Assembly (NCBI RefSeq): GCF_024498195.1
Contig: NZ_CP101824.1
Location: 3,286,001 to 3,350,000 of the forward strand
Direction: 5' to 3'
DNA length: 64,000 nucleotides
DNA from: Halovivax cerinus
Lineage (GTDB): Archaea; Halobacteriota; Halobacteria; Halobacteriales; Natrialbaceae
The notes under the pieces were generated by a model that was not told the origin of the DNA, made no database searches, and saw only the letters and a list, made by a program, of their open reading frames with translations. Positions 52,496 to 59,375 of this stretch are shown piece by piece (the first letter of the stretch is position 1; each line of letters begins with the position of its first letter). Position numbers and translations under genes: made by a program.

Positions 52496-52924
52496 GAGTA
52501 CAGGTGGACTGTAGAAGGCCCGCCGTATAGCGGGTCCAACCGATTCCTCTCGCGCGAGAATGCCTCGAACGTGTTCGCGTGGGCGTACATGTCCACAGGC
52601 TCAGGGGAAGTACGTGCCCGCTGTCCAGTGCAACGAGAGAGGAAGAAAGTGTGTGAGAAGGAGATGTGTGTGAGTGTGTGTATGTGTGTGAGAAGGAGAT
52701 GTGTGTGAGTGTGTGTATGTGTGTGAGTGTGTACGTGTGAGAGTATGAGGGAGTGAGCGTGCGTCGGACCGACGGCGACTCCCGTCACTATCGGCACACA
52801 CATACGATCGGACCGATTGGCTGGCGATACCATCGTCTCAGTCCACGTGTCGTTCGCCGTGACCGAGTTCGATGGTGTTCGTTCAGGACGGTCGCTATTT
52901 ACGGGTCGAGACCCAGAGGCGGTC
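52496..52924. other. Intergenic region, GT-rich, between oxidase and bat-type gene
   Basis: These 429 bases contain the multicopper oxidase promoter (GCTATAC on the minus strand, about 52530-52537), the GT/GA-rich repeat tract at 52643-52752, and the leaderless promoter of the LOV-Bat gene (GCTATTTACGGG, about 52897-52908). No gene is supported. Confidence 0.6.
52643..52752. repeat. GT-rich minisatellite with 35-bp units
   Basis: A 35-bp unit beginning GTGTGTGAGAAGGAGATGTG occupies 52649-52683 and is repeated exactly at 52684-52718. A third partial unit, GTGTGTGAGTGTGTACGTGT, follows. The tract is almost purely G/T/A on the plus strand, far from the 65% GC of the surroundings. Long (GT)n stretches can adopt Z-DNA in high salt. 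Confidence 0.95.
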
Positions 52925-54961
52925 ATGGTCGACACCGCTCTCACGCGCGTCTACTTTCGTGCGAGCGAGTCCGCCGAGACCGCATCGCTCCGCGACGCAC
53001 TCGCCGGCGCACCCGCTCTCTCGATGGTCGAGGAGTCGGACGGGAGACCGGAGCGACGGCGACCGCCGAACGCCGTCGACTGCGCCGTGTACGTCCACGG
53101 CGACGGGCTCGATGGGATCGGACTGCTAGAGCAGGTTCGACGGACGAGACCGACACTGCCGGTGGTACTCGTCGCCGAGGACCTTCCCGGAGACGCCCTA
53201 CGTCGGGCCATCGCGGCCGACGTCTCCGGGTACGTTCCACGTCACTCGGACGACACCAATCGGCTGCTGATCGAGGAAATCGAGCGGCTCGTCGAACCCG
53301 ACCGGGGACCCGTCGACGACGGCTCCGACGATGATCAGTCGACTCGAATGCCGATCGAACGCCTCCCGGACCGGCAAGAGCGGCGGCTCAAAGAGCGCGC
53401 GATGGACGAAGCGCCCGTCGGTATCGCGATCACCGATCCGGATCGACCCGACAATCCGCTGGTCTACGTCAACGAGTCGTTCGAGGAGTTGACCGGCTAC
53501 CCACCCGCGGAGACGATCGGACGGAACTGCCGATTCCTCCAGGGACCAGGGACGGATCCAGACGCGATCTCGACCCTTCGATCGGCCATCGACGCCGAGG
53601 AGCCAGTCGCCGTCGAACTCGAGAACTACCGGGCCGACGGCGAGCCCTTCTGGAACCGCGTCGAGATCGCGCCCCTCCACCGGGACGGCGACGTGACACA
53701 CTTCGTCGGCTATCAGACCGACGTTACCGCGCGGAAGACGGCCGAACTCAGGCTAGAGCGAGAACGTGAGACACTCGACACCATCCTCACACGGGTCAAC
53801 GGACTGGTCAACGACGTGACGGCCGCCCTCGTGGAGGCGGGCGGTCGAGCGGCCGCCGAACGGTCCGTCTGCGAGCGGATCGCCGACACCGACGCGTACC
53901 AGGCCGCCTGGATCGGTGACCCCGACCTCGCGACGGGCCGCATAACGGTGTCCGCCGCGGCTGGTGTCTGGGAAACGGATCCCGACGAGATCGGTCGAGC
54001 GCTCGGCGACGACGAGGCGACGGTAACCGCCGCGTCTCGGGCGTACGAGACCGGCCACACACAACGCATCACGGACCCGGAAACCATCGACCGTGTTCGA
54101 AGAGGAGACTGGTTCGAGGGATGCGAACTCGGTGGCGTGGTCGCGATCCCACTTTCGAATCGGGACACGATTCACGGGGTACTCTGCGTGTACGCGACCG
54201 AGGGTACTGCGATCGATGATCGGGAGGGTGTCGTCCTCGACGCGCTCGCCAGAGCGACCGCGACGACGATCGACGCGATCGAGCGGGGCCGACTCCTCCT
54301 CGCGGACCACGTCGTCGAACTCGAGATTGATATCAGAGACCCTGCGGTTCCGCTCGTCGCACTTTCCGACCGCACCGATACGACGATCTCCTACGAGGGC
54401 GCCGTCGTCGGTGCGAACGGACGAGTCGGACTGTTCGTCGCCATCGAAGCGCCGCCAGCGGAGATCTCGGCCGCGATCGACCACGTCTCAGGCATCACCG
54501 ACGGTACACTCGTCCACGAACACGACGAAACCTGTCTGTTCGAACTACGCATTGCGGGTCCGTCGATCGTCGGAACGATAGCCGATCACGGTGGGACCAC
54601 ACAAGAGATGACGGCGACCGACGGCGCGTGTCGTGTGACTGCAGAACTGGCGACCGAAGGGGACGCCCGGGCCATCGTGGAGGCGCTCCGAGATCTGTAC
54701 GACGGCGTCGAACTGGTCGCCCGGCGAAATTCCGACCGGCCACCGACGACGCGCCGAGAGTTTCTCGCCGAACTCGCTGACAGGCTCACCGACAAACAAC
54801 GTGAGGCGTTACAAACCGCGTACGCGACCGGGTACTACGACTGGAACCGGTCCGTCTCCGGCGACGACCTCGCGGCCGCGATGGGAGTCGCGAGGTCGAC
54901 GTACCACCAGCATCGGCGAGCCGCCGAACGGAAACTCGTCACTGCGTTCTTCGATCGCTGA
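52925..54961 (+). CDS. LOV-PAS Bat-type transcriptional regulator (HTH_10)
   Basis: A 678-residue Bat-like (bacterio-opsin activator) regulator. Domains in order: a receiver-like segment (about 45-125; TRPTLPVVLVAEDLPGDALR), a PAS/LOV domain (about 155-265), a GAF domain (about 285-430; ERIADTDAYQAAWIGDPDLA), a Bat-specific domain (about 445-600) and the C-terminal HTH_10 (about 620-678; LTDKQREALQTAYATGYYDW). The LOV motif GRNCRFLQG is intact, with photoactive Cys202, and the flavin-contacting NYRADGEPFWN and GYQTDVT are present. I start at ATG 52925, 25 nt after a TATA; a longer frame starts at TTG. It precedes the carotenoid operon in the same direction. Confidence 0.93.
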   Translation: MVDTALTRVYFRASESAETASLRDALAGAPALSMVEESDGRPERRRPPNAVDCAVYVHGDGLDGIGLLEQVRRTRPTLPVVLVAEDLPGDALRRAIAADVSGYVPRHSDDTNRLLIEEIERLVEPDRGPVDDGSDDDQSTRMPIERLPDRQERRLKERAMDEAPVGIAITDPDRPDNPLVYVNESFEELTGYPPAETIGRNCRFLQGPGTDPDAISTLRSAIDAEEPVAVELENYRADGEPFWNRVEIAPLHRDGDVTHFVGYQTDVTARKTAELRLERERETLDTILTRVNGLVNDVTAALVEAGGRAAAERSVCERIADTDAYQAAWIGDPDLATGRITVSAAAGVWETDPDEIGRALGDDEATVTAASRAYETGHTQRITDPETIDRVRRGDWFEGCELGGVVAIPLSNRDTIHGVLCVYATEGTAIDDREGVVLDALARATATTIDAIERGRLLLADHVVELEIDIRDPAVPLVALSDRTDTTISYEGAVVGANGRVGLFVAIEAPPAEISAAIDHVSGITDGTLVHEHDETCLFELRIAGPSIVGTIADHGGTTQEMTATDGACRVTAELATEGDARAIVEALRDLYDGVELVARRNSDRPPTTRREFLAELADRLTDKQREALQTAYATGYYDWNRSVSGDDLAAAMGVARSTYHQHRRAAERKLVTAFFDR

Positions 54962-55080
54962 CCCCAGGCGCGACGGGCTTCGGTCGTCGGTTCCTCATCG
55001 CCACTCTATCGACTCGGAGAGAGACCGGATCAGGTCCAATGTACAGTCACGGGTCCGACACGCGTTCACCTGACTCACGC

Positions 55081-55107
55081 ACTAGTTAGGTACACTCCTG
55101 TTTATCA
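55081..55107 (+). promoter_or_regulatory. Bop-regulon UAS-like element and TATA box of crtB
   Basis: ACTAGTTAGG (55081-55090) equals the right half of the Halobacterium bop-regulon UAS as I remember it (actagTTnGG); the left half matches poorly. TTTATCA (55101-55107) is a TATA box about 20 nt further on, giving a transcript start near 55130 and a leader of about 15-17 nt before the crtB ATG. Confidence 0.6.
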
Positions 55108-55146
55108 GGTCAGCCGTGGTACGTAACGGGGCAACTGCCCCTCCCT

Positions 55147-56196
55147 ATGATCGACGCAGACAACCTGGCCCAGAGCAAGGCGATCCAGCAGCGAACCGGG
55201 CGGACGTTCCACCTGGCGACGCGCCTGCTACCGTCTCGAATCAGGAACGCGACGTACGTACTGTACGCGTTCTTCCGAATCGCAGACGACGTGGTCGACG
55301 ATCCGGACCCACCGCCCGCCGAACGCCAGCTCGCGGAACTAGAACGGATTCGCGACGCCGCGCTGGGGAACCGGCCTGCCGACGATCCGGTTCTGGCGGC
55401 GTTTCGAACCGTCAGCGAGCGGTACGAGATCCCGGATCGAGAGGTCAACGAGTTCGTCGACGCGATGGCCACTGACGTCTCGAACACGCGATACGAGACG
55501 CACGAGGAACTCGCGGAGTACCTCCGCGGGTCGTCGGTCGCCGTCGCGAACATGATGCTGTGCGTCATGGATCCCGAGGACGCAGACACGGCCCGCCCGC
55601 ACGCGCGGGCGCTCGCCGAGGCGCTCCAGTTGACCAACTTCCTCCGCGACGTTCGCGAGGACGTCGTCGACTACGGGCGGATCTACCTTCCTCAATCGCG
55701 CCTCGCCGAGTACGACGTCTCTGAAGAACAGGTCGAACGATTGGCGTTCTCCCCCGAGTTCGCGGTGTTGATGCGGGCCGAACTGGCGCGAACCGAACGA
55801 CGGTATCGCGCCGGAATCGACGGCGTCCGATACCTGCCCGAAGGCTGCCAGTTCGCCGTGTTGCTGGCGGGGGTCCTCTACGTCGACCACCATCGGCTGA
55901 TCCGCGCACAGGGGTACGACGTACTCACCAGTCGTCCATCGCTTGCCACCTCGCGGCGTCTCCTCCTGGCCGCGAAGACCTGGTGGCACTGGCGTCGGAC
56001 GGAGGACCCGCGCGCCGCGTTCGAAGCCGCGAGTTCGATTCCCCCTCGGAACGACGGTCGATGGGACGAGGATGGGACGGAAGACGACGTCATCGTCGAT
56101 TCACCCGGATCGACGAACGGTGGCGGTGGAACGCGATCGATCGGCGACGTCGTGTCGTGGGTTCAGACGCGCCTCTTTTCGGGTGAGTCCAAATGA
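55147..56196 (+). CDS. crtB: Phytoene synthase CrtB
   Basis: A 349-residue phytoene synthase condensing two geranylgeranyl diphosphates, the first committed step to carotenoids. Motif 1 is AFFRIADDVVDDPD, motif 2 is NFLRDVREDVVDYGRIYLP, and FHLATRLLPSRIRNATYVLY is the usual N-terminus. About 50 C-terminal residues are an acidic, Gly-rich linker ending in VVSWVQTRLFSGESK. Its stop overlaps the crtI start by 4 bp. A UAS-like element and a TATA lie immediately upstream, and the LOV-Bat gene ends 185 bp before. Confidence 0.95.
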   Translation: MIDADNLAQSKAIQQRTGRTFHLATRLLPSRIRNATYVLYAFFRIADDVVDDPDPPPAERQLAELERIRDAALGNRPADDPVLAAFRTVSERYEIPDREVNEFVDAMATDVSNTRYETHEELAEYLRGSSVAVANMMLCVMDPEDADTARPHARALAEALQLTNFLRDVREDVVDYGRIYLPQSRLAEYDVSEEQVERLAFSPEFAVLMRAELARTERRYRAGIDGVRYLPEGCQFAVLLAGVLYVDHHRLIRAQGYDVLTSRPSLATSRRLLLAAKTWWHWRRTEDPRAAFEAASSIPPRNDGRWDEDGTEDDVIVDSPGSTNGGGGTRSIGDVVSWVQTRLFSGESK

Positions 56197-57701
56197 GCGG
56201 GCTGACGAGCGGCGACCGGTCCGTCTGCGTCGTCGGAGGCGGTGTCGGTGGCCTCGCGACCGCCTGCTACCTCGCCGACGCCGGGTTCGACGTGACGGTC
56301 GTCGAAAAGAACGACCAGCTCGGCGGTCGAGCGAGTCGACTCGAACGCGACGGCTTCAGATTCGACATGGGGCCGTCGTGGTACCTGATGCCGGACGTCT
56401 TCGAACGGTTCTTCGCACACTTCGATCGAGCGCCGACCGACTACTACGAGCTAACGCATCTCGATCCACACTACCGGATCTACTGGAAGGACGGCGACAG
56501 CCTCGACGTGACCGGCGATCTGACCGATATGGGGGCCGCCCTCGAACGGTACGAGCCGGGTGCCGGGGACGCCCTCGAACGGTACCTCGAGACGGCGGCG
56601 GAGACGTACGACATCGGGATGGAACACTTCGTCTACACGGATCGGCCGCGGTTTCGCGACTACGTCGACCTGGACGTGATCCGAAACGCGAGCGGGCTGT
56701 CGCTGCTCGGTTCCATGCAGGATCACGTCGAGCAGTACTTCGACCACCCGAAACTACAGCAGGTCGTCCAGTACTCGCTGGTCTTTCTCGGCGGGAGCCC
56801 GACGAACACGCCCGCACTGTACAACCTCATGAGTCACGTCGACTTCGGTCTCGGCGTCCACTACCCGTCGGGCGGTATGGGCGCCGTCGTCGACGCGCTC
56901 GTCGCGCTCGGGCGCGAACTCGGCGTCGACTATCGAACTGGCTTCGAGGTCACGGCGATCGACGGCGAGCGCGGTGCGTTCGCGGTCCACAACCGTCGAG
57001 AGACCATCGGCGCCGATATCGTCGTGAGTGACGCCGATTACGCCCACACCGAGGGAACCCTCCTCTCTATCGACGACCGACAGTACGACGCCGAGTACTG
57101 GCACGACCGCACGTACGCCCCGTCGGCGTTTCTCTGCTACCTCGGCGTCGAGGGCGACCTCGAGGGGCTGGCACACCACACGCTCGTCCTTCCGACGTCG
57201 TGGGACGATCACTTCGAACAGATATTCGACCGACCGTCGTGGCCCGACGATCCCGCCTACTACCTCTGTGCCCCCTCGAAAACCGACGCGACCGTCGCCC
57301 CGGACGGCCACAGCAACCTCTTCGTGCTCGTGCCCATCGCGCCCGGACTCCCGGACGGACCGGACGTCCGTGAGCGCTACCGTGACCAGATTCTCGCAGA
57401 CGTCGCGGCGAACACGGGCGAAGACCTGCGCGATCGCATCGTCGTCGAAGAGACGTTCTCGGTCTCGGACTTCGCGGCCAGGTACAACAGCCGAAACGGG
57501 ACGGCACTCGGACTCGCCCACACGCTCAGACAGACCGGACCCCTCCGCCCGGGGCACCGCTCGTCCGAACTCGACGGGCTCTACTTCACCGGCTCGTACA
57601 CCACGCCGGGCATCGGCGTCCCGATGTGTCTGATCAGCGGCGAGCACGCCGCCGAGACAGTCTTCGAAGACGAACGAACGCGCACGCCCCGGCAGGTATG
57701 A
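56193..57701 (+). CDS. crtI: Phytoene desaturase CrtI
   Basis: A 502-residue FAD-dependent phytoene desaturase that converts phytoene to lycopene in four steps. The FAD motif VVGGGVGGLATACYLADAGF begins near residue 11, followed by LGGRASRLERDGFRFDMGPS. The C-terminal signature GLYFTGSYTTPGIGVPMCLI plus SGEHAAE is the bacterial-type carotenoid desaturase signature. It overlaps crtB and the downstream prenyltransferase gene by 4 bp each (ATGA), so the operon is translationally coupled. Confidence 0.95.
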   Translation: MSGLTSGDRSVCVVGGGVGGLATACYLADAGFDVTVVEKNDQLGGRASRLERDGFRFDMGPSWYLMPDVFERFFAHFDRAPTDYYELTHLDPHYRIYWKDGDSLDVTGDLTDMGAALERYEPGAGDALERYLETAAETYDIGMEHFVYTDRPRFRDYVDLDVIRNASGLSLLGSMQDHVEQYFDHPKLQQVVQYSLVFLGGSPTNTPALYNLMSHVDFGLGVHYPSGGMGAVVDALVALGRELGVDYRTGFEVTAIDGERGAFAVHNRRETIGADIVVSDADYAHTEGTLLSIDDRQYDAEYWHDRTYAPSAFLCYLGVEGDLEGLAHHTLVLPTSWDDHFEQIFDRPSWPDDPAYYLCAPSKTDATVAPDGHSNLFVLVPIAPGLPDGPDVRERYRDQILADVAANTGEDLRDRIVVEETFSVSDFAARYNSRNGTALGLAHTLRQTGPLRPGHRSSELDGLYFTGSYTTPGIGVPMCLISGEHAAETVFEDERTRTPRQV

Positions 57702-58534
57702 GCCACGCGCGTCGACTCCTGAGACGGTCGCGACCGCTGTTCTGGCTCTACCTCGCCGGACCGGCCATCGTGGGTGCGGTCTACGCCGCGGACGCCATAG
57801 ACGCACTCGCCGCCCCGCTGGTGATCGGCCTCGTCGGCTACTTCCTCGTCCCGGCGAACGTGTTCCTCTACGGGATCAACGACGTCTTCGATGCCGAGAT
57901 CGACGCCGTCAACTCGAAGAAGGACGGGATAGAGGAGCGCTACGAGGGTGACCGTCTGACCGTCCTCGCCGTGGCCACGAGCGCCGTTCTCGGCCTCGCG
58001 TTTCTCCTCGTCATCCCGGCGCGCGCCGGGATCTACCTCCTCGGGTTCCTGATACTCGGGGCGGGCTACAGCACCCCGCCGTTGCGGTTCAAGACGACGC
58101 CGCTGCTCGACTCCGTCTCCAACGGCCTCTACGTGCTTCCGGCCGGCGTGACCTACGTCACGCTATCGGGGACGCACCCCCCTGCGCTCGCGCTCCTCGG
58201 CGGCTGGCTCTGGGCGATGGGGATGCACACCTTTTCGGCAATTCCGGACGTCGAGCCCGACCGTCTCGCCGGGATTCGCACGACCGCGACCACACTCGGC
58301 CGACGAGGAGCCCTCGGCTACTGCGTCGCCTGCTGGACGGCGGCGGCGATCGCGTTCGGACTCCTGGACGGACGCGTCGGCGCCCTCGTGGCGATGTATC
58401 CGCTGCTCGTCGGCGCCATCGTCGTCGCGAACGTCCGGGTCGACCGCGCGTACTGGTGGTTTCCGGCCGTCAATTCGGCGGCGGGAATGCTCCTGACACT
58501 CGGCGGACTCTGGCAGGTGTCCCATGCGTACTGA
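57698..58534 (+). CDS. lyeJ: Lycopene elongase (UbiA prenyltransferase)
   Basis: A 278-residue integral membrane UbiA-family prenyltransferase with seven to eight helices. The Asp-rich motif NDVFDAEIDAVNSKKD and the second, IPDVEPDRLAGIRTTAT, bind the prenyl diphosphate. In bacterioruberin synthesis this enzyme adds C5 units to both ends of lycopene (with hydration) to give C50 precursors. The placement after crtB-crtI and before cruF supports the assignment over a menaquinone or heme prenyltransferase. It overlaps crtI by 4 bp and cruF by 11 bp. Confidence 0.93.
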   Translation: MSHARRLLRRSRPLFWLYLAGPAIVGAVYAADAIDALAAPLVIGLVGYFLVPANVFLYGINDVFDAEIDAVNSKKDGIEERYEGDRLTVLAVATSAVLGLAFLLVIPARAGIYLLGFLILGAGYSTPPLRFKTTPLLDSVSNGLYVLPAGVTYVTLSGTHPPALALLGGWLWAMGMHTFSAIPDVEPDRLAGIRTTATTLGRRGALGYCVACWTAAAIAFGLLDGRVGALVAMYPLLVGAIVVANVRVDRAYWWFPAVNSAAGMLLTLGGLWQVSHAY

Positions 58535-59375
58535 TCGCGAGACCGGGGGGTCGATCCGAACTCGACGGCTCGACGAATTCGTCCGCGAACACCGGTTCAC
58601 GATCGCCGTCGTCTTCCCCCTCGTCGGGGCGGTCGTCCTCGTCGCCAGCGCGGAGGGGCTCCTTCCCGACCCACTCGCGTTCAACCCGCTCCTCGTCCTC
58701 GTCGGGACGGCCGTCATGCGGCTCCCGCTGATCGTCGGATTCCTGCCGGTGCTCGACAGGCACCTCGCAGGCGCCGTACTCGCCCTCGTCGCCTACACGT
58801 ACGCGATCGAATTCCTCGGGCTCACGACCGGCTGGCCGTACGGCCACTTCGAGTACGGCGTCTCCCTCGGTCCGATGGTCGGCGGCGTGCCACTCGCGCT
58901 CCCGCTCTTTTTCCTCCCGCTCGTCCTGAACGCGGTGGTGCTTTCGACGCTGCTTGTCGGTGCCGGCGACCGTCGCTGGCCCCGTCGACTCGCTCTCGGC
59001 GTGGCCCTGGTCATCACGATCGACCTCGTCCTCGATCCGGCGGCCGTCTCGATCGGGTTCTGGTCCTACGCCACCGCCGGGCCGTACTACGACGTCCCCG
59101 CGACGAACTACGCCGGGTGGCTCCTGAGCGGCTCGATCGCCGTGGCGCTGCTCGAGGGTACGCTTCCCCGCGCCTCCCTCCAGGCGAGACTCCGTACCTG
59201 CGAGTTCGCCCTCGACGACCTCGTGAGCTTCGTCCTCCTCTGGGGTGGGATCAACGCCCTCTACGGTAACTGGCTCCCGGTCGGCCTCGCCGGGGTACTC
59301 CTCGCCAGCCTGTTGCGAACCGGTCGGTTCGATCTCGCGTCCCTCGCTCGATCGACGGGCCCCGCCGACTCCTGA
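58524..59375 (+). CDS. cruF: Bisanhydrobacterioruberin hydratase CruF
   Basis: A 283-residue membrane protein of the CruF/carotenoid 1,2-hydratase-like (DUF422) family with about seven transmembrane helices. Recognisable features are YTYAIEFLGLTTGWPYGHFE, then YGVSLGPMVGGVPLALPLFF, and DLVLDPAAVSIGFWSYATAG plus PYYDVPATNYAGWLLSG. It hydrates the C50 end groups in the last step to bacterioruberin. It is the last gene of the coupled cluster, and its first 11 bp overlap the prenyltransferase gene. Confidence 0.92.
   Translation: MRTDRETGGSIRTRRLDEFVREHRFTIAVVFPLVGAVVLVASAEGLLPDPLAFNPLLVLVGTAVMRLPLIVGFLPVLDRHLAGAVLALVAYTYAIEFLGLTTGWPYGHFEYGVSLGPMVGGVPLALPLFFLPLVLNAVVLSTLLVGAGDRRWPRRLALGVALVITIDLVLDPAAVSIGFWSYATAGPYYDVPATNYAGWLLSGSIAVALLEGTLPRASLQARLRTCEFALDDLVSFVLLWGGINALYGNWLPVGLAGVLLASLLRTGRFDLASLARSTGPADS

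Follow-up and report, generated by a model that had tools for sequence, protein, structure and literature searches.

The motif ACTAGTTAGG in front of crtB, the phytoene synthase gene, is best read as part of a Bat-type upstream activator sequence (UAS) that is most likely bound by the product of the adjacent bat gene. We have considerable confidence in the full explanation, namely that this is an activator site of the crtB operon, that Bat binds it, and that it is probably switched by blue light. The original prediction of a bop-like UAS gained support from four observations: the single exact copy of the motif in the genome, its conservation in place within the family, the fuller palindromes found beside LOV-Bat genes elsewhere, and the same kind of site before rhodopsin genes that follow LOV-Bat genes.

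Halobacterium is the organism in which Bat and the bop UAS were characterized, and the UAS of the bop regulon has the consensus ACC-cn-actag-TT-n-GG. In the window (the whole 64-kb stretch of DNA that was analyzed), the right half at 55081–55090 agrees with what we take to be the bop-UAS half, ACT..TT.GG, before a TATA box. The features of the locus are as follows.

52817..54961, + strand: bat-type regulator gene, with PAS/LOV (NCRFLQ), GAF, BAT and HTH_10
55068..55075, + strand: left-arm-like extra half ACCTGACT, 8 bases too far upstream for a left arm
55074..55093, + strand: predicted Bat-type upstream activator site, a degenerate 20-bp palindrome, CTCACGCACTAGTTAGGTAC, with 5/10 pairs intact
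55081..55090, + strand: conserved right half ACTAGTTAGG, the originally predicted motif, which tops the motif-matrix ranking in the window
55101..55106, + strand: TATA box TTTATC, 10 bases after AGG
55114..55121, + strand: downstream element CCGTGGTA, counterpart of the family element YYGTNGTA
55147..56196, + strand: crtB, phytoene synthase, the putative target gene (ORF and Pfam)
56193..57701, + strand: crtI-like phytoene desaturase (Pfam Amino_oxidase and NAD_binding_8; specific name by context)
57626..58534, + strand: UbiA-family prenyltransferase, probably lycopene elongase (Pfam; specific name putative)
58524..59375, + strand: CruF-like carotenoid hydratase (Pfam Caroten_synth; specific name putative)

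The predicted interval, 55081–55107, takes in both the half site and the TATA-like box. The motif had been placed just upstream of the TATA box at the expected distance, and this was confirmed: the exact ACTAGTTAGG on the + strand ends 10 bases 5' of TTTATC, and both lie in the 185-base gap between bat and crtB, whose ATG is at 55147. The crtB, crtI-like, UbiA-type and CruF-like genes 3' of this gap are co-directional and overlapping (by four bases between crtB and the crtI-like gene) and presumably form one operon. A scan of 54950–55200 for bacterial promoters and terminators found nothing. Upstream of bat, between it and a multicopper oxidase gene, the presumed bat promoter holds a GT-rich short tandem repeat at 52649–52744, with a 35-bp unit present in 2.3 copies at 52649–52727 (100% matches).

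Rarity of the half site and its conservation at crtB

A genome-wide motif search had been proposed as a check on the prediction, and it returned a single exact copy of ACTAGTTAGG in the whole 3.9-Mb genome, the one in front of crtB. The count has to be read against expectation. With at most one mismatch, 0.42 copies were expected in the 64-kb window from dinucleotide shuffles and 1, an exact one, was seen; dividing this expectation by the 31 variants allowed by one mismatch and scaling to the genome gave an estimate of ~0.8 exact copies, versus the 1 seen. Similarly, ACTAGTTNGG had 3 copies in the genome versus 10 for the reversed control pattern, and the two further copies (L001 and L003) lacked TTTA(A/T) in the 26 nt on the correct side. 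The bare 10-mer proves nothing alone; position and conservation carry the case. The objection that such a motif might be equally frequent at random thus held for the bare 10-mer, which is at chance level. As a promoter element the site is more than chance, and here the comparison with relatives has the most weight. Two further requirements each left the crtB site as the sole match in the genome: TAGTNAGG-N6..12-TTTAT had one match, at crtB, with one match also for the reversed control. The pattern AC[CT][AG]GTNAGGTA[CT]-N4..9-TTT, which includes the AGGTAY extension and was designed after related sites had been seen, gave one genome match and none for its control.

Other searches of the window and genome were less informative or negative. 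A relaxed pattern for the full 16-mer UAS, allowing 3 mismatches, was useless as a test, giving 113 hits in the window versus 110 expected. Searching the genome for other targets with the symmetric pattern CCNRACYRGTYNGG found 10 places, none with TTTA(A/T) 0–26 nt downstream on the + strand; one alone (L298) has TTTA(A/T) on the - strand, touching the site. The upstream region of the halorhodopsin gene had no such site by eye.

To examine conservation, we searched 125 family genomes for crtB, with a match in 124, and 131 crtB upstream regions from 123 genomes were analyzed; G047 (a partial match), some second copies (e.g., G034:C125 and G102) and weak matches were left out. Within 250 nt upstream of crtB, TAGTNAGG-N6..12-TTTAT was present in 67 of the 131 regions, in 67 genomes, and one further match, before the second crtB copy G034:C125 outside these regions, brought the total to 68. 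Across the 125 whole genomes the pattern had 107 matches and its reversed control 122, so that the ~39 matches elsewhere fall below the control count and the excess sits at one gene, crtB. The spacing between AGG and TTTAT in the 67 promoters was nearly fixed (9 bases in 62, 10 in 4 and 8 in 1), the letter N was G in 59 of them, and the commonest form was CCnnACTAGTGAGGG-n8-TTTTATA.

A 14-mer score, devised after the sites had been seen, was at least 10 in 67 of the 131 regions versus 0.4% of shuffled regions. Scores of at least 10 were found in 43 of the 69 regions with bat within 1.5 kb upstream and in 24 of the 62 without, while 23 of the 69 bat-adjacent regions scored below 9, many of them retaining only TAGTGAGG and no left arm. 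Second crtB copies do not provide a clean negative control, since those of G043–G046 retain a degenerate version of the half site, arranged in the same way relative to the TATA box.

The sister genomes G029 and G032 keep the half site at the same position, and a similar one is present in dozens of species. In addition, a weight matrix built from 62 sites (24 distinct) outside genus g1 ranked the right ten bases of the window site first of 127,982 positions and all fourteen bases fourth of 127,974. It is very hard to believe, given these findings, that the motif is a chance resemblance, i.e., a random 10-mer that recalls the bop UAS: the ~0.8 copies expected and the lack of over-representation of ACTAGTTNGG would allow it, but the half site stands in place in both sister genomes, similar sites recur in dozens of species at a near-fixed distance from the TATA box, and a motif built outside the genus picks out the window right half before any other position.

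The prediction that the left half is not conserved agrees with the same rankings, as the right half ranks first and the full 14-mer only fourth, which marks the left arm as degenerate; at 55076–55078 it has CAC where the 15-mer consensus has ACC. The number of palindrome pairs kept, 6/10 in G029 and 5/10 in G032 and in the window, differs little. These sequence tests are in keeping with evolution of the site from a symmetric ancestor. The extra half ACCTGACT is absent from G029 and G032 and possibly arose by chance.

A second conserved element, YYGTNGTA, lies downstream of the TATA box. TTTAT-N6-YYGTNGTA was found in 67 of the 131 crtB regions of the family, and hand counts in the family genomes gave ~148 places versus ~59 for the reversed control, nearly half of the genome-wide places being crtB promoters. 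In the trio formed by the window genome and its sisters, CCGTGGTA stands 8 bases after TTTAT instead of 6, and hence outside the 67 of 131; neither of the two places in the window genome that match strictly is at crtB. YYGTNGTA may be the mark of a regulator or of a special contact with TFB.

Related sites at crtB and rhodopsin genes of other families

We also searched 293 genomes of the order for crtB and took 24 of the strongest matches from other families as loci. Ten of these loci carried bat upstream of crtB, and the site was present in nine of the ten. The fullest form was in G274, where CATACCTGACTAGTCAGGTATG, a perfect 22-base palindrome, stands just after bat. The other forms were CCTGACCAGTCAGG in G237 and G270, CCTGACTAGTAGGG in G196, CCCCACTAGTCCGG in G287 and CCCTACTAGTCCGG in G350, and, at the end of bat and separated from crtB by a gene for a small CxxC-type protein, CTGACTGGTAAGG in G243, CCTGACTGGTGAGG in G191 and CCTGACTAGTAAGG in G279. 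Fuller forms around CCTGACTAGTNAGGTA occur at LOV-Bat loci of other families. No clear site was seen in G234, the tenth locus with bat upstream of crtB. The 14 loci without bat included two with a score of 10 (G170 and G271), three with a score of 9 (G216, G178 and G272, all CCAACCTGGTTGGG), and nine with 7 or 8, seven of them from family f6.

These forms bear on whether the conserved sequence could belong to the core promoter, as an unusual BRE or a spacer, instead of being the site of a regulator. It lies close to the TATA box with near-fixed spacing and in the location of a BRE; on the other hand, the half site with TATA box occurs about once per genome, mostly at crtB, and in its fuller form it is palindromic over as many as 22 bases, so we consider a core-promoter element very improbable.

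Two observations on the arrangement of these loci were made by the way. The bat stop codon lies, by eye, inside the palindromic site in six loci (L227, L209, L211, L207, L214 and L223), where the coding end and the operator overlap. The gene for a small CxxC-type (zinc-finger-like) protein that separates site and crtB in three LOV-Bat loci (L207, L214 and L223) is reminiscent of the Halobacterium proteins Brz and OE3095R.

A tree of 55 crtB rows divided into sides of 16 and 39 rows, with a dividing support of only 87/79 and a root placed for drawing. The 16-row side held the window trio, G030, G031, the LOV-linked rows of f12 and f17, G287, G350, G170 and one Halobacterium, and the 39-row side the other family members with rows of f4, f5, f6, f16 and f17. 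The window crtB thus falls on the Halobacterium side, with the weak support of that 87/79 division, and a shared or transferred cassette of bat, site and crtB is possible.

The loci were also entered from the Bat side, by seeking the window Bat in the 293 genomes and examining the 30 best loci, of which 29 carry NCRFLQ. Eighteen of the 30 had a site with a score of at least 10 in the 500 nt that follow bat. These were all 11 of the loci that have crtB downstream and 7 of the 19 that lack it there. This entry partly overlaps the other, since 8 of the 11 crtB loci, including the window, were already in the crtB search and G228, G247 and G131 were new. The remaining 12 of the 30 had no site of that score, two of them scoring 9. 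At three loci (L289, L294 and L297), a LOV-Bat gene is followed by a CCCCACTAGTGAGGG-like site and the start ATGCCAACCTG (MPT...) of what is apparently a small cysteine-rich protein, and no crtB was found in the locus.

In G236, from another family and one of the 19 loci that lack crtB downstream, a LOV-Bat gene is followed by CCTAACTAGTCGGG with TTTATC and then by bacteriorhodopsin (Pfam E 4e-67; Cruxrhodopsin-3 nearest). Alignment of this promoter with the window crtB promoter gave 35 columns with 28 identical, 6 different and 1 gap, for a score of 20, which none of 2000 single-base shuffles of the G236 promoter reached (best 15). Of all the findings, this alignment ties the site most directly to the bop regulon. 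The occurrence of CTCCTGT downstream of the TATA box in some relatives had suggested a loss of ~12 bases between site and TATA box in the genus, an idea we dropped because G236 has the same spacer before bacteriorhodopsin. A rhodopsin gene directly follows bat in G001 (at the PF01036 hit) and in G005, with a site between the genes that scores 10 in the former and 9 in the latter; in G005, two copies precede the rhodopsin gene.

For Halobacterium itself, H. salinarum DSM 3754 was rejected as a reference for the bop promoter, as its contig holds no more than 127 bases ahead of the codons for mature Bop and its leader does not match the expected bop leader; Halobacterium sp. TGN-42-S1 was used instead. 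That genome has CCAAACTGGTGGGG upstream of crtB and ACCATACTGATTGGG upstream of bop. Compared by eye with bop-type sites, the right ten bases of the window agree at 7/10 positions with Halobacterium sp. TGN-42-S1, 8/10 with G236 and 9/10 with G001.

Thirteen loci (the 11 from the Bat-side search plus G274 and G270) have an NCRFLQ Bat before crtB. The right arm continues GGTA in 12 of them and GGGCA in G247, and other crtB promoters of the family mostly have AGGG instead of GGTA. The GGTA extension may mean that the type of regulator and the type of site are matched to each other.

The Bat regulator and a proposed mechanism

The window Bat has the architecture of the Bat family, with PF13426 (PAS), PF13185 (GAF_2), PF15915 (BAT) and PF04967 (HTH_10); its start codon is uncertain, the longest ORF opening with TTG. 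Its PAS stretch contains GRNCRFLQ, the adduct-cysteine motif of the LOV signature, and matched LOV structures, with hits to 152 distinct PDB sequences at E <= 0.001; among the best 60 of these, the first two are histidine kinases, followed by the blue-light photoreceptor 2mwg (E 2e-34). Blue-light switching is probable because the LOV domain carries this motif.

The motif is not general among related proteins. In 40 selected bat-crtB loci, searched over a 1.3-kb stretch each, NCRFLQ was found in 9 and no N.RFLQ in 31, where the absence of LOV refers to that stretch. By group, NCRFLQ was present in 2 of 30 loci in the family (G029 and G032) and 7 of 10 outside it, and as 28 of the 30 had no N.RFLQ in 1.3 kb, the crtB-linked Bat common in the family is not of the LOV type. 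The bop-locus Bats of a Halobacterium, Haloplanus, Halohasta and archaeon SHRA6 all have NHRFLQ (4/4), without the LOV cysteine. Light sensing is therefore not transferable from the known Bats, since those at bop loci and most of those linked to crtB in the family are without the cysteine motif. According to the available text of PMC4682037, a direct light response of BAT has been suggested without being definitively established.

The DNA-binding end is more uniform, with [SA]T[FY]HQH in the last helix of 75 of 79 crtB-adjacent Bats and also in the four bop-locus Bats. The window genome has 21 BAT-domain hits, among which the window protein fits the Pfam BAT model best, and four of the 20 proteins examined have HQH (STYHQH in the window, STFHQH in L047, and ATFHQH in L044 and L048). 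A further BAT-domain regulator (L164 1688–3898) starts 1.7 kb past the window end, near the carotenoid cluster; it has a membrane-like N-terminus and ATLHGH rather than HQH in its last helix.

These paralogs make it necessary to consider a real activator site whose binder is not the adjacent Bat, being either a different HTH_10 regulator or a small zinc-finger protein of the Brz type. The 20 other BAT-domain hits would offer candidates, 3 of the 19 others examined having the HQH helix. A neighbouring bat gene is not a requirement, because 24 of the 62 family crtB regions without one nearby score at least 10, and there a different Bat or some other factor could be at work; in addition, a small CxxC protein gene stands between bat and crtB in the three LOV-Bat loci noted above, and Brz influences bop and crtB1 in Halobacterium, according to the available text of PMC2253796. 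However, bat, site and crtB or a rhodopsin gene are closely linked in several families, with sites right at the end of bat, and nearness favours the window Bat among the HQH-bearing paralogs. We therefore consider another binder rather unlikely.

With the adjacent Bat as the most likely binder, we propose the following mechanism. A Bat-type protein, most likely that of the upstream neighbour, would bind the palindrome-derived site via its C-terminal HTH_10 domain, presumably as a dimer with one firm half (55084–55093) and one weak half; the weak left arm may mean weak binding. Bound Bat would then recruit TBP/TFB to the TATA box ten bases away, acting as an activator rather than a repressor, and so switch on crtB and the co-directional crtI-UbiA-cruF genes. 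Blue light, the presumed signal, would probably turn the switch on, with possible added input via GAF. The window genome has one PF01036 match, a halorhodopsin (E 2e-94 to 3a7k), and no bacteriorhodopsin was found by this search; the target would therefore be carotenoid synthesis. The presence of the motif beside a probable blue-light-sensing regulator suggests light-controlled pigment production.

More speculatively, and with slightly less than even confidence, we propose that a photoactive-LOV Bat with a palindromic site just after its gene forms a portable haloarchaeal cassette that has been put before bacteriorhodopsin or phytoene synthase, that carotenoid synthesis is thereby under the direct drive of blue light in species that lack bacteriorhodopsin, and that YYGTNGTA, between the TATA box and the transcription start, joins in the control of crtB. 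A linked set with a sensor cysteine, a visible conserved target site and a pigment output would be a simple system for the study of direct light control of an archaeal promoter, and the motif could be used to seek Bat targets in many genomes.

Comparison with known systems

For Halobacterium, the available text of PMC1502140 and PMC1885257 describes Bat as acting on bop, brp, bat and crtB1 by way of the UAS. The accessible parts of the literature on Bat and the UAS (including PMC3184054, PMC1447603, PMC12202551 and PMC5626843, with subscription papers mostly outside its scope) contained no such crtB site outside Halobacterium.

The window site resembles the Halobacterium bop-regulon UAS in its place just upstream of the TATA box and in what we take to be the core of the printed consensus, ACT..T..GG. 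Phytoene synthase is among the targets in both systems, and a Bat-type regulator is linked in both. The window differs in that its left half is not kept, its right half continues AGGTAC, and its genome has one halorhodopsin and no bacteriorhodopsin that we found. From its sequence, we regard the window site as a variant that would work like the bop UAS and not as a plain member. The G236 promoter shares ACTAGT..GGTA.ACTCCT.TTTATC and the order bat, site, TATA box and gene with the window; unlike the window, its target is bacteriorhodopsin, its spacing is one base shorter, and its left arm, CCTAAC, is better kept.

As for the regulator, the Bat protein of the window and BAT-LOV* of Halorubrum (Yee et al. 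2015, PMC4682037) both combine a LOV-like PAS domain with GAF and HTH domains. In the available text of that report, BAT-LOV* has Pro at the adduct position, where the window protein has Cys (NCRFLQ), and a receiver domain, which Pfam did not find in the window protein. EL222 (PDB 8a5r, among the structure matches) would work in a similar way, with a LOV sensor coupled to an HTH DNA-binding domain, although the window Bat is not a member of that group, as it has HTH_10 with BAT and GAF domains and would act at an archaeal promoter.
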